In this document: positions 2,924 through 41,558 of the stretch, piece after piece | How positions within the stretch are numbered: position 1 is the first letter of the stretch | Layout of the letters: each line of letters begins with the position of its first letter | Source: Pseudonocardia broussonetiae | Lineage (GTDB): Bacteria > Actinomycetota > Actinomycetes > Mycobacteriales > Pseudonocardiaceae | Direction of reading: 5' to 3' | Assembly (NCBI RefSeq): GCF_013155125.1 | Contig: NZ_CP053564.1 | Location: 1,867,501 to 1,931,500, forward strand | DNA length: 64,000 nt | Position numbers and translations under genes: made by a program | Notes under the pieces: generated by a model | Database searches by the model: none | Told to the model about the DNA's origin: nothing | The model's input: only the letters and a program-made list of their open reading frames with translations

Positions 2924-4756
2924 ATGGGCCACTTCAGGAGCAACCTGCGCGACCTCGAGTTCAACCTCTTCGAGGTGTTCGGCGTCCAGGAGCGGCTCGG
3001 CAGCGGGCCGTTCGACGGCGTCGACCTCCAGACCGCCCGCGACACCCTCAAGGAGCTCAACGCCGTGGCCACCGGGCCGCTGGCGGAGCCCTTCGCCGAC
3101 GCCGACCGCAACCCGCCGGTGTTCGACCCGGCCACGTTCTCGGTCACGCTGCCGCAGTCGTTCAAGGACTCCTACAAGGTCCTGTGGGACGGCGAGTGGT
3201 GGCGCCTGGGCCTGCCCGTCGAGCTGGGCGGCTACGGCATCCCGCCGACCGTGCAGTGGGCCGCCGCGGAGCTGATCCTCGGCTCGAACCCGGCCGCGTT
3301 CATGTACATGGCGGGCCCCAACTTCGCCTCCGTCGTGCACCGCAACGGCACCGAGGAGCAGCAGCACTGGGCCGAGCTCATGATCGAGCGCGCCTGGGGC
3401 GCCACGATGGTGCTCACCGAGCCCGACGCGGGCTCCGACGTCGGTGCCGGCCGGACGAAGGCCGTGCAGCAGGCCGACGGCACCTGGCACATCGACGGCG
3501 TCAAGCGCTTCATCACCTCGGCCGAGCACGACATGTCCGAGAACATCATGCACCTGGTCCTGGCCCGCCCCGAGGGCGCGAAGGCCGGCACGAAGGGCCT
3601 CTCGCTCTTCCTGGTGCCCAAGTTCCACTTCGACACGCAGACCGGTGAGCCCGGCGAGCGCAACGGCGCCTTCGTCACCGGCGTCGAGCACAAGATGGGC
3701 CTCAAGGCCTCCACCACCTGCGAGCTGACGTTCGGCCAGCACGGCACCCCGGCCGTCGGTTGGCTGCTGGGCGAGGTGCACGACGGCATCGCACAGATGT
3801 TCGAGGTCATCGAGCACGCGCGGATGCTGGTCGGCACGAAGGCGATCGGCACGCTCTCGGCGGGCTACCTCGCCGCGCTGGAGTACGCCAAGGAGCGCGT
3901 CCAGGGCGCCGACCTCCCGCAGATGCTCGACAAGACCGCGCCGCGCGTCACGATCACCCACCACCCCGACGTGCGCCGCCTGCTCATGACGAACAAGGCC
4001 TACGCCGAGGGCCTGCGCGCCGTGTACCTCTACACGGCCACCTTCCAGGACCGGATCCGGCTCGGGAAGGACGCGGGCGAGGACGTCTCGCTGGAGGAGC
4101 GGGTCAACGACCTGCTGCTGCCGATCGTCAAGGGCGTCGGCTCGGAGCGCGCCACCGAGCAGCTGCCGCAGGCGCTGCAGGTCCTGGGCGGCTCGGGCTA
4201 CCTGCAGGACTACCCCCTCGAGCAGTACATCCGCGACGCCAAGATCGACTCGCTGTACGAGGGCACCACGGCGATCCAGTCGCTCGACCTGCTGTTCCGC
4301 AAGATCGTCCGCGACAACGGGCAGGCGCTCGGGCACGTCACCGGCGAGATCCAGGCCTTCCTCGACGCCGAGTCCGGCAACGGTCGCCTCAAGGAGGAGC
4401 GGGCGCTGCTCGCCACCGCGCTGGCCGACGTGCAGGGCATGCTCGGCGCCCTCACCGGCTACCTCATGGCGAGCGCCCAGGACCCGTCGAGCATCTACAA
4501 GGTCGGGCAGCACAGCGTCCGGCTGCTGATGGCGCTGGGCGACCTGCTCGTCGGCTGGCTGCTGCTGCGCCAGGCCGACGTCGCTCTGACCGCCCTCGGC
4601 GGCGAGGTGAGCGCCAAGGACCAGGCGTTCTACGAGGGCAAGGTCGGCGTGGCCCGGTTCTTCGCCAAGACCCACCTGCCGCTGCTCACCAGCCAGCGCG
4701 TGATCCTCGAGCAGGCCGACAACAGCCTGATGGAGCTGTCCGAGGCGGCGTTCTAG
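2924..4756 (+). CDS. fadE5: acyl-CoA dehydrogenase, FadE5 type
   Basis: A 610-residue FAD enzyme of fatty-acid beta-oxidation that introduces the 2,3-trans double bond in acyl-CoA. The length and sequence closely follow mycobacterial FadE5 as I remember it (about 611 residues), including the N-terminal [18 protein letters not shown]. Domains in order: helical N-domain, beta middle domain with the FAD/substrate motif [17 protein letters not shown] (about 160-175) and [12 protein letters not shown], then the C-terminal helical domain with [18 protein letters not shown] and [10 protein letters not shown] carrying the glutamate of the catalytic region. A further C-terminal extension is characteristic of this long subfamily. 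The ATG at 2924 has AGAAGGAGA about 10 bases upstream. It stands alone; its stop codon overlaps that of the convergent SnoaL-like gene. Regulation is probably by the tandem operators upstream. Confidence 0.95.
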
Positions 4757-5193
4757 GCGGGGGCGTCCTCGCCCACGTCGGCGAACGAGTGGTGCTCGTG
4801 GGTCACGGTCCACCGGCCGTCGTCCTTGCGCAGCCCGATGGTGAGGCGCAGGCGGCGGTCGGGTTCGCGGGCCAGCTCGTCGGCGGTGCCGCAGCGCAGG
4901 AGCGCGAAGGCGAACGCCGTGTCGGCGCCGGCCGTGACCTCCAGGGACTCGATGTCGAACGACGCCCCGGACGCCTGCCAGGCGAGGAACAGGGGCCAGC
5001 TCCGCTCGTAGGCGGCCAGTCCGCGGACGCCCTGCTCGGGCGGCGGCACGTCGAACATGACGATGTCGTCGGCGTGGTCGGCCAGCACCGCGGGCAGGTC
5101 GCCGTCGTGGACGGCGGCCGCCCAGCGCTCGACGAGGTCGCGGATCTGCTGTGCGTCGGTCTGCTGCGTGTCGGTCTGCTGCGTGTCGCTCAT
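4753..5193 (-). CDS. SnoaL/NTF2-like (DUF4440-type) protein
   Basis: A 146-residue single-domain protein of the NTF2-like superfamily, related to the SgcJ/EcaC-type proteins. After an odd glutamine/threonine-rich start come the usual helix [32 protein letters not shown] and a beta-sheet ending [14 protein letters not shown]. Such proteins are often ketosteroid-isomerase-like or of unknown function; no catalytic set can be claimed here. The first 15 codons consist of three copies of a 15-bp repeat, so the N-terminus may be length-variable. It is divergent from the sigma factor gene, which carries its own SnoaL-like domain; the 55-bp gap suggests shared control. Confidence 0.8.
5145..5189. repeat. 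three 15-bp repeats in the start of the SnoaL-like gene
   Basis: On the plus strand two identical units TCTGCTGCGTGTCGG/C follow a degenerate copy. In the minus-strand gene they encode [10 protein letters not shown] and TDAQQ, directly after the start codon. Because 15 is a multiple of three, copy-number change would keep the frame. Confidence 0.75.
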
Positions 5194-9987: not shown

Positions 9988-10041
9988 ACGAGAAAGCCCC
10001 GCGGTGCTGTCAGGTCGGGGGTCCGACAGCACCGCGAGGCT
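9988..10041 (-). terminator. intrinsic terminator of the AAA ATPase gene
   Basis: On the minus strand a 12-bp perfect stem (CGCGGTGCTGTC with its complement; arms 10025-10036 and 10000-10011, 13-base loop) extends through AGCC/GGCT pairing and is followed by TTTCTCGTT. It lies about 85 bases beyond the ATPase stop and isolates it from the GroES-like gene. Confidence 0.85.
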
Positions 10042-10123
10042 GTACGTGGAATCGCCGCCCGGGGGGCGTTCGTTAACGCGCGCGCCCACCGGCGGACCTT
10101 TTCACCCGTTCGGGTGTACCAGA

Positions 10124-39662: not shown

Positions 39663-40208
39663 ATGACCGGAGCCCGGGACCGCGTGCTCGACGCCTACGA
39701 GACGCTCCTGATCGACCACGGCCCCGGATCGGCCACGCTCGACGCCGTCGCCGCCGCGGCGGAGGTCTCCAAGGGCGGGCTGCTCTACCACTTCGCGTCG
39801 AAGGACGCGCTGGTCACCGGCCTGCTCGACCGCCTGCGCGAGCGCAGCGCCGCCGACGCCGACGCGATCCGCAGCGCCCCCGACGGCGCCGTCGCCTACT
39901 ACCTGCGCACCTCCGCACCCGGCGGCGGCACCCCCGGCGGCGTCACGCGCACCTACCTCGCGGTCCTGCGCATCTCCGACGGCAGCTCCACCGGTCAGGA
40001 GGTCCGCGACGCGCTGGCGGTGGTGGACGCCGACGCCTTCGCCGCGCTCCGGGACGAGCTCGAGGACCCGGTGCTGGCCTGGCTCGCCCAGCTCGTGGGG
40101 GACGGCCTGTACCTGCGCACCCTCACCGGCACCCCCCTACCGCCCGGGTTGGGGGTGGAGGACCTGCTGGCGAGGATGCGGCGGTACCTGCCGGCGGCGG
40201 AAGCCTGA
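39663..40208 (+). CDS. TetR family transcriptional repressor
   Basis: A 181-residue regulator. The helix-turn-helix is GSATLDAVAAAAEVSKGGLLYHFASKDAL, split as TLDAVAAAAEVSKGG and LLYHFASKDALV, the standard TetR arrangement. The C-terminal ligand domain is helical and shorter than average. It most likely represses the divergent MFS gene and itself through the palindrome at 39590-39605; the inducer is unknown. Confidence 0.93.
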   Translation: MTGARDRVLDAYETLLIDHGPGSATLDAVAAAAEVSKGGLLYHFASKDALVTGLLDRLRERSAADADAIRSAPDGAVAYYLRTSAPGGGTPGGVTRTYLAVLRISDGSSTGQEVRDALAVVDADAFAALRDELEDPVLAWLAQLVGDGLYLRTLTGTPLPPGLGVEDLLARMRRYLPAAEA

Positions 40209-40274
40209 CATTCGCCCCCACCCGCCCGTCGCGCCTCCGTCCCGTCGCGCCCCCGCTCCGCCCGCCCTGCCCAA
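40209..40274. other. short spacer before the repeat element
   Basis: Low-complexity C-rich sequence after the TetR stop; nothing else seen. Confidence 0.4.
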
Positions 40275-40463
40275 CCGGTGATCAAGGGGAGATGGTCGCT
40301 CGATGATCTCCGGACGCGGCCTTTCGCCCTTGATGAGCGCCGGGGCGGGACGGGCCGGGAGTGGGGCGGGCGCAGCGGGAGCGGACCGGGCTTCGCGCCT
40401 CCCTGTTGGCCGTTCGCGCACGTCCGGACATGCGCGGGACGGCGGGTTGGTGCGCAGTTCGCG

Positions 40464-40479
40464 GCGTTCCGCGGAACGC
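40464..40479. repeat. palindrome GCGTTCCGCGGAACGC, copy 1
   Basis: Perfect 16-bp palindrome preceded by TGCGCAGTTCGCG and by a second near-palindrome GCGCACGTCCGGACATGCGC. Same arrangement as copy 3. Confidence 0.9.
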
Positions 40480-40605
40480 GGTCGTGCGTGACACCCGCGC
40501 GCAGCCTCCCGGCCGCGCACCCGCCGGCGGTTCGCGCACCGGTTGATCAGAAGCGCGTACGCGGGCCCCACGCCCTGCGCGGGTCACGGCAGGTGCGTGT
40601 TCGCT

Positions 40606-40621
40606 GCGTTCCGCGGAACGC
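40606..40621. repeat. palindrome GCGTTCCGCGGAACGC, copy 2
   Basis: Identical 16-bp palindrome 142 bp after copy 1; its left context is more diverged than in copies 1 and 3. Confidence 0.9.
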
Positions 40622-40646
40622 GATCGCACAGCGACAGTCGTGCGAG

Positions 40647-40670
40647 CCACGGTCTGCACTCGTGGTTTTT
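40647..40670 (+). terminator. terminator-like hairpin with T-run inside the repeat unit
   Basis: CCACG (40647-40651) and CGTGG (40661-40665) flank a 9-base loop and are followed by TTTTT. This is a rare run in such GC-rich DNA and would end a plus-strand transcript starting within the unit. Confidence 0.5.
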
Positions 40671-40773
40671 CAACGCCCACCAGTGGCTTGCGCACCTGTT
40701 GGCTGCTCGCACACGTCCGCACGTGCGCGGGGCGCCACCACCTGCGCGAATGCCGGCTGGTGCGCGGTTCGCG

Positions 40774-40789
40774 GCGTTCCGCGGAACGC
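40774..40789. repeat. palindrome GCGTTCCGCGGAACGC, copy 3
   Basis: Identical palindrome 168 bp after copy 2, with the same left context as copy 1 (GTTGGCTGCTCGCACACGTC is the matching start). A fourth, decayed copy of the context is at about 40860-40877. Confidence 0.9.
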
Positions 40790-41013
40790 GGATCGCGCGC
40801 CGACGCCCACGCTGAGGCTCGCTGCATGCACGACCGTCGGTCGTCAGCGCGGGATGCAGGCTGCTGCGCAGTTCGCGCCCCGTCGCCCGCGCGTCGCCCC
40901 GATTCGCCGACCCGTCCCACCAGTCGACCACGCGCACGCCGCCGAGCCCCGCGATCAAGGGCACATGGTCGCGGTCGGAGATCAACGAGCGACCATCCGC
41001 CCTTGATCACCGG

Positions 41014-41219
41014 CCGCCCGGGGCGTGGCAGGAGCGCGGCGGCCAGGAGGGTGCGGGGCGCGGCAGGGGTGCGGCGGCCAAGGGGATGCGGCGCTCGGCG
41101 GGGGTGCGGCGCCCAGGGGCGTGCGGGCCCGAGCGGGTGCGGCGGGGGGCGCGGTAGGGAGGGGGTGCCGAGGTGGGGAGGAGGTGCCGAGGCGGGGGGA
41201 AGGGGGTCGCGGGCGCGCC
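41014..41219. repeat. G-rich degenerate repeat tract
   Basis: About 200 bases of strongly G-biased plus strand built from variants of GGTGCGGCG and GAGGTGCCGAGG. It lies between the inverted-repeat unit and the stop codon of the next gene. Many G3-G6 runs suggest it could form G-quadruplexes. No open frame here is credible. Confidence 0.6.
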
Positions 41220-41558
41220 CTACCCGAAGATCCACCTCGACGTCGCCCGGACCAGGGACGGGGCCGGCTCCACCGGCACCGGACGCCGGGCGATCTCCGG
41301 CACCGGGATGGGCAGGCGGTGGGTCGTGACGTTCCAGTACCGGCTCTCCGGGTCGCCCGCCCGCCACGCGTTGGCCAGGCGGGCGATGGCGTCGGCGTCG
41401 GCCCGGCGGCGGGGGCGCGGGCGCATGCCGCAGCGCTCGCGGACCTCGCGGTCCAGCGTGCGCCAGGCGTCGTCGGCGGTGGTGTGCACGCTGACGGTGG
41501 GTTCGCCGTCGGTCTGGCCGACCAGCAGCGTGTAGGCGCTGACCATCTCGTAGGACAC
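41220..41558 (-). CDS. small protein of unknown function
   Basis: A 112-residue cytoplasmic protein: MVSAYTLLVGQTDGEPTVSV, then TTADDAWRTLDREVRERCGM, a basic segment RPRPRRRADADAIARLANAWRAGDPESRYWNVTTHRLPIPVPEIA and RATSRWIFG at the end (quoted in pieces). I do not recognise it. The GTG at 41558 has GAGAGGGG about 8 bases upstream. Alpha-beta content looks like a compact fold. Flanked by non-coding DNA on both sides. Confidence 0.7.
   Translation of the reverse strand: MSYEMVSAYTLLVGQTDGEPTVSVHTTADDAWRTLDREVRERCGMRPRPRRRADADAIARLANAWRAGDPESRYWNVTTHRLPIPVPEIARRPVPVEPAPSLVRATSRWIFG

Follow-up and report, generated by a model that had tools for sequence, protein, structure and literature searches.

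The window, that is the whole stretch of 64,000 nucleotides of Pseudonocardia broussonetiae DNA analyzed here, contains a TetR-like regulator gene that converges with a small gene, and the spacer between the two is filled with palindromes and repeats (Table 1). The original prediction, made from the letters alone, had singled out 739 bp of this spacer (40275-41013) as a non-coding unit with inverted ends, and most of what it described was reproduced. The left 60 bases and the reverse complement of the right 60 agree at 51 of 60 positions, each end can fold by itself (−37.5 and −38.1 kcal/mol as RNA), and the interior has three exact copies of GCGTTCCGCGGAACGC (hereafter B), 142 and 168 bp apart, each enclosed in a longer degenerate repeat. 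A codon-based gene caller written for this analysis placed no gene between 40208 and 41220, which agrees with the predicted lack of genes, and alignment of the region to P. oceani (KRD185), the nearest relative, revealed no target duplication, as had been noted. The predicted T-run hairpin stood only in part; it is seen by eye (CCACG/CGTGG with a 9-nt loop), but a terminator scan allowing loops of 3-8 nt does not call it.

The full inverted match extends over 72 nt at 81% (40263-40334 with 40954-41025). When the 1,011-bp region was shuffled 300 times with dinucleotides preserved, the best inverted 60-mer that a seeded search could find had 39 matches, as compared with 51 in the real sequence. 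Each end of the 739 bp is also a palindrome in its own right. Elsewhere in the window, positions 9990-10046 (minus strand) match the F6 TB sRNA (RF01791) with 69.4 bits, above the gathering score.

Table 1. Features of the spacer and its neighboring genes, in window positions
Feature	Position	Strand	Remark
TetR-like regulator, left neighbor	39663..40208	+	
Convergent intergenic block from tetR-like gene to small gene; presence/absence unit	40209..41219	.	1,011 bp here, 15 bp in P. oceani
Left copy of A element, a 56-bp dyad with a conserved loop	40280..40335	+	
40-bp repeat with CACGTCCGGACATG near-palindrome; 85% like 40695-40734	40402..40441	+	
48-bp repeat holding B copy 1; 88% like 40744-40791	40434..40481	+	
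B palindrome GCGTTCCGCGGAACGC, copy 1	40464..40479	.	
B palindrome, copy 2	40606..40621	.	
T-run hairpin, weak; terminator scan negative	40647..40670	+	sequence
Second copy of 40-bp CACGTCCGGACATG repeat	40695..40734	+	
48-bp repeat holding B copy 3	40744..40791	+	
B palindrome, copy 3	40774..40789	.	
Related upstream repeat without B	40856..40877	+	
A element, right copy, orientation opposite to left	40953..41008	-	
Three 35-bp G-rich tandem copies; within variable block, outside the 739 bp	41019..41123	+	
Small gene without Pfam match, right neighbor, convergent	41220..41558	-	

The 739 bp and the palindrome at its ends

Three readings of the 739 bp had been offered: a non-autonomous mobile element with terminal inverted repeats, a recombination or partition site, and a structured RNA gene. 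Miniature inverted-repeat transposable elements (MITEs) are non-coding, have inverted ends and are missing from relatives, and the block is like them in all three respects. The ends match at 51/60, and the empty site that had been proposed as a check was found, the block being absent from the tetR/small-gene pair of P. oceani, where flanking DNA is 94-95% identical; in P. hydrocarbonoxydans the same gap measures 16 bp, as read from the stop codons. The resemblance to MITEs ends with copy number, target-site duplication and delimitation of the unit by its terminal repeats. The whole unit has one full match in the genome of 7.29 Mb, other matches being pieces only, its ends occur solo elsewhere, and the variation between species concerns the entire intergenic region, where no target duplication was seen. 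The genome also has no match to the Y1 transposase (PF01797, RAYT type), which was detected in 5 of 14 control genomes. That the 739 bp is a miniature transposon bounded by inverted repeats of 60 bp is most improbable, and this reading is already contradicted.

Each end is a copy of A, a dispersed self-palindrome of 56 bp with arms GATCAAGGGCNNATGGTCGC and a conserved loop near GTGGATCAC, and the two look like terminal inverted repeats because A is self-complementary. The copies lie within the variable block, 71 and 211 bp from its edges, so A does not delimit it, and elsewhere in the genome A palindromes stand alone or at other spacings. The loci examined in this genome contain 19 copies (2 of these in the window), and all loci collected contain 33. 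That A bounds the 739 bp is coincidental, repeats having accumulated in one long convergent spacer, and what looks like an "inverted-repeat element" in genomes of this kind can be dispersed palindromes that have become neighbors by chance.

The TetR spacer gathers different repeats in different species. An exact B is missing from the TetR loci of 49 other congeners, some of these loci being truncated at the end of a contig, and a single locus carries an arm of A. The spacer of P. petroleophila is 3 kb long and has its own 22-bp tandem array (about 4503-4917 of locus L305), unrelated to B. A phage or plasmid origin of the block was rejected, as 40209-41219 had no match in the two collections searched, one of plasmids and one of phages.

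In 32 aligned copies of A, 530 of 640 cells are paired, as compared with 523 after shuffling (64 of 500 shuffles reach 530), and extra pair types number 9 as compared with 5.5 (11 of 500 reach 9). Mismatches are G-T in 27 cases and A-C in 36, and the loop is largely as conserved as the arms. This pattern would weakly favor recognition of the sequence over an RNA stem. Intergenic regions (L171 and L227) also hold a different dispersed palindrome, about 60 bp long and with GATC at its ends (GATCACCAGGAGTGGTGC...CACCACTC...GATCAT), which is built like A but differs in sequence. A family of repeated words around CCCGCGCGCCCCCG / GGGGGCGCGCGGGA occurs in up to 10 intergenic regions of this genome (e.g., L184).

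Palindrome B between and inside genes

The exact 16-mer B has 97 copies in the genome, all of them located, and the reversed control has none. By our gene caller 87 copies are outside genes, mostly in arrays, and 10 are inside. In the spacers of at least 150 bp (54,937 bases), B-like sites with 0, 1, 2 and 3 mismatches number 81, 25, 9 and 7, as compared with 0, 0, 0.12 and 1.3 for 60 shuffled palindromes in the same bases, and B is the sole 16-nt palindrome occurring more than once in the spacers of at least 100 bp that were examined. Its core is exact across arrays, whereas the flanking DNA is unrelated from one array to the next. At least one exact copy is present in 27 of 62 Pseudonocardia genomes (this one included), with the reversed control absent from all 62; B is not essential to the genus, since the other 35 genomes have no exact copy. 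Low counts in other genomes may include ordinary codons; 6 of the 11 copies in P. abyssalis are inside genes. Fourteen stretches with two exact palindromes 12-42 bp apart were found among named genomes (records close to our own possibly left out), 13 from Pseudonocardia and one from Frankia canadensis. A single B was seen in another genome (G022:C1:2519-2534) about 1 kb past a dnaA domain match.

Comparison with P. oceani demonstrates that arrays grow and are lost between species. Of 27 loci of our genome, 26 could be aligned (B counts here allow one mismatch). Three arrays of 1,276 bp with 7 B, 1,041 bp with 12 and 599 bp with 5 correspond in P. oceani to 126 bp with none, 234 bp with 2 and 119 bp with 1, and one change is in the reverse direction (256 bp with 3 B here vs. 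769 bp with 6). Spacers bearing A can be stable (341 vs. 357, 614 vs. 563, and 1,212 vs. 1,227 bp). A flank-anchored test of core conservation was confounded by one-base shifts, and conservation was also followed by an aligner at 55 exact sites of 14 loci. Eleven sites aligned across the core, of which 5 are identical, 1 has one mismatch, 2 are shifted by two bases with most of the core, and 3 have the core missing (9-12 mismatches; 2 of these 3 alignments are untrustworthy). Three further sites have an indel in the core, 8 alignments do not span it, and the rest were below score.

Units within one array share flanks. Homology often stops at B, because 141 of 198 site pairs are homologous on one arm only, a count that array ends inflate; local duplication, with B at the junction, thus seems to be how arrays grow and rearrange.

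Eighteen arrays with at least three sites, counting those with one mismatch, were found in this genome; convergent genes flank 10 of them, unidirectional genes 7 and divergent genes 1. In an unbiased 0.8-Mb stretch convergent pairs make up 119 of 727 of all pairs, 31 of 172 spacers of at least 150 bp and 17 of 55 spacers of at least 400 bp, so that the convergent bias has P = 0.0002 against all pairs, 0.0009 against the second set and 0.09, which is weak, against the third. The scarcity of divergent placement stands against long spacers (P = 0.016). HNH genes are neighbors of B loci at a few loci only, and they were rejected as partners of B on that count.

Along the chromosome the B loci are mostly confined to one region. 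The non-coding loci number about 24; 21 of 23 tested fall within an arc of 2.39 Mb, a clustering matched by none of 20,000 uniform draws, and the 24th, at 5425219, is inside the arc as well. The sites are mostly at 3.12-5.52 Mb, dnaA is at 1.606 Mb and a dif-like site, identified by a pattern built on a dif consensus, is at 5.181 Mb; the arc therefore takes up the distal portion of one replichore and extends a little past it. Across the genus this position varies. P. abyssalis has 6 of its 11 sites at 1.60-2.06 Mb, with dif at 1.61, while in two genomes B is near the origin, taken as opposite dif (15 of 16 sites in G042, 25 of 29 listed in G044). In a further genome (G002) 15 of 19 sites are within 0.7 Mb of dnaA, and because of this a fixed terminus role is out. 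A terminus macrodomain role for B was thus rejected on G002 together with G042 and G044.

The presence of at least five copies of B (21 of 50 genomes, with 24 others having none) requires 5 changes on the tree of the TetR protein, as compared with 16.2 for shuffled labels (0 of 500); this is the midpoint-rooted tree of one gene, not a species tree, and covers 50 of the 62 genomes. Genomes with at least five B fall on both sides of the root, and the identical 16-mer has therefore persisted in distant clades even as the places it occupies change.

Copies inside genes are held at the DNA level. They use the codons GGA, GTT and GAA, which are rare (2.8, 0.4 and 2.3% of the codons of their amino acids). 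An acyl-CoA ligase gene at about 4.76 Mb (L218, 4373-6265) has nine in-frame 33-bp units, seven of them with exact B, read as AFRGT within an 11-residue repeat, and the rare GGA codon is used in eight of the nine; the P. oceani orthologue has four exact B. Among 120 listed homologues of 690, three carry AFRGT: a short version of the same protein, another sequence with five and one from P. abyssalis with three at irregular spacing. In plsB, the version with B (VPRNAI) differs from that of P. hydrocarbonoxydans (DPRVPV) at 7 of the 16 core bases in an ungapped reading, with length unchanged and flanks nearly identical to this B-less gene, and P. petroleophila has B at the same place with one mismatch. 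VPRNA is present in 8 of the 50 best homologues of the plsB product, with three changes on the protein tree, all forced by well-supported branches; these are three gains, or one gain and two losses. Three copies of B were also noticed in the low-complexity linker of a gene that by eye is dnaX-like (L095, 44-2731, G044), and three copies coding RSAER in an 876-residue protein of G042 (L334) that looks like it.

Two explanations without a binding protein bear on these observations. If GC-rich intergenic DNA had simply undergone neutral tandem duplication and slippage, and B were no more than the latest unit, the flanks common to units within an array would be explained, but the 16-mer is identical between arrays with unrelated flanks, and in plsB it is a single substituted patch; this explanation is largely contradicted already, and we regard it as very improbable. 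The main rival of a protein site is that B is a selfish short palindrome without a function for the host, propagated through local duplication and patch conversion by way of recombination or template switching. The expansion and shrinkage of arrays between sister species, the homology that so often ends at B, the patch replacement in plsB, the filling of permissive places in genes (the repeat in the acyl-CoA ligase, the dnaX-like linker) and the patchy distribution over the genus are all in its favor. Against it, clades on either side of the midpoint root retain the identical 16-mer, and neither of two further properties, namely base preferences outside the core without pairing and a spacing of about 11 bp (both described below), is expected of a passive sequence. 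We consider selfish spread possible though on the unlikely side; it and a protein site can both be true.

Half-sites and spacing of B

Base preferences extend symmetrically beyond the core. When half-sites were counted once per intergenic flank (65 distinct flanks, several species), a pyrimidine is at −1 in 114 of 130 and a purine at −3 in 93 of 130. These preferences do not reflect pairing, as no extra complementarity past the 16 bp was found at 12 offsets.

The structured RNA gene of the original prediction found little support; no Rfam family matches at the gathering score within the 739-bp block or 40209-41219, covariation is weak in A, and B has none beyond its core. B and A could still be RNA hairpins at 3' ends, serving as terminators or stabilizers of convergent transcripts, and the convergent bias of arrays relative to all gene pairs (10/18 vs. 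119/727), the ability of the B core to fold with a CGCG loop and the strong folding of A are consistent with this. Pairing in B that stops at the core, A-C mismatches in A that are not fewer than G-T, its weak covariation, the damage to transcription to be expected from copies inside genes and the failure of the scan to call any terminator-like site in the block all argue against it, and we judge RNA hairpins improbable.

B sites are likely, though not proven, to be spaced near multiples of 11.2 bp. Centre-to-centre distances of up to 100 bp (59 distances from 39 arrays, equal distances counted once per array) lie near multiples of 11.20 bp, and none of 4000 jittered sets was as strong. Our genome with P. 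oceani, whose arrays are partly orthologous, gave a period of 11.10 bp (3/4000), and the other species, including one distance from Frankia (L149), gave 11.25 bp (6/4000). The signal of B was stronger than that of each of 54 random 6-mers, the strongest not contained in B reaching 6.8 vs. 11.6. Significance was lost when each distance value was used once (269/3000 and 1108/3000), the best period moves between 10.5 and 11.6 with the distance limit, and the uncollapsed 6-mer control is also periodic, at 10.10. A 10.5-bp signal was absent up to 250 bp in four genomes read from positions. A repeat of the test that included the array at 5.346 Mb, which is not in the set of 59 distances, gave 28/4000 and 104/4000 and, pooled, 0/4000, with a null of fresh jitter at each period that is over-strict. 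The helical repeat of supercoiled DNA in living cells is close to the 11.2-bp period.

Comparison with known systems and possible role of B

Short palindromes that are dispersed, clustered and located between unidirectional and convergent genes, with some inside genes, are described for the GTAG and CGTC super-families of REP/BIME sequences (PMC3733652), and as far as that description goes B and A are alike in all these features; the words Actinobacteria, Pseudonocardia, Frankia and Streptomyces are absent from the main text of the paper. As in REP, B is mostly extragenic (87/97) with a bias to 3' ends (10 of 18 arrays convergent, 1 divergent). The differences are that the GTAG/CGTC end tag is absent, by reading, from the aligned A copies, from B and from its flank preferences, that B lacks a loop and is exact in its core, and that the RAYT transposase of the GTAG type (PF01797) was not found in the genome. 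REP driven by RAYT was rejected on this last point.

matS, the site of MatP, is a dispersed palindrome confined to one region of the chromosome. B shares both properties, but is longer and arrayed, and its region differs between species instead of being confined to the terminus. The sites of ParB (parS) and Noc are 16-bp dyads with many sites within and between genes, and so are those of B. The letters of B agree with the parS and Noc consensus at 6 and 8 of 16 positions, and 24% and 6% of random palindromes match as well; a likeness in letters to either site was therefore rejected as no better than that of random palindromes. A recombination or partition site had been among the readings first proposed, and its notion of a protein-bound site is closest to our findings. 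Rickettsia palindromic elements are found in frame within protein genes, as B is, but exceed 100 bp, whereas B is 16 bp long and in plsB is a patch replaced at unchanged length. No account of B or A was found in the open-access literature, and the 16-mer itself was in no open-access paper found, its inner 14 and 12 letters being in one unrelated cancer paper.

Turning to the protein-site reading, which we prefer, B is most likely the recognition site of a putative homodimeric DNA-binding protein that would occupy neighboring sites on one face of the helix, a proposal that in our estimation stands evenly balanced. The protein, its dimeric state and its cooperative binding are suggested by the dyad, the half-site preferences and the spacing. 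The block in the window would then be one of about 24 non-coding loci that accumulate the exact 16-bp dyad (extended, RNYGCGTTCCGCGGAACGCRNY), with arrays that presumably grow by local duplication, and the ends of the 739 bp would be copies of the second dispersed palindrome, A, sharing the region by accumulation. The putative protein would serve in chromosome organization or local silencing rather than promoter control, which is less favored because only 1 of the 18 arrays lies between divergent genes.

More broadly, and rather speculatively, several Pseudonocardia clades might carry an undescribed chromosomal system, in which a putative dimeric protein would occupy helically phased 16-bp dyads, would have built intergenic arrays of them and, through the replacement of patches, would have drawn the same dyad into plsB and other core genes. 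Here it would mark a 2.4-Mb domain, mostly of one replichore; the system would serve architecture or silencing, its sites would move fast, and it would be unrelated to ParB, Noc or MatP. We offer this full picture tentatively, as somewhat unlikely to hold as a whole.

If B is selfish, it would be a very small self-spreading unit of DNA that is able to overwrite the codons of genes. If B is a protein site, it would belong to a chromosome-organizing or silencing system in a little-studied genus, and the natural differences in array size between sister species would allow dosage tests.
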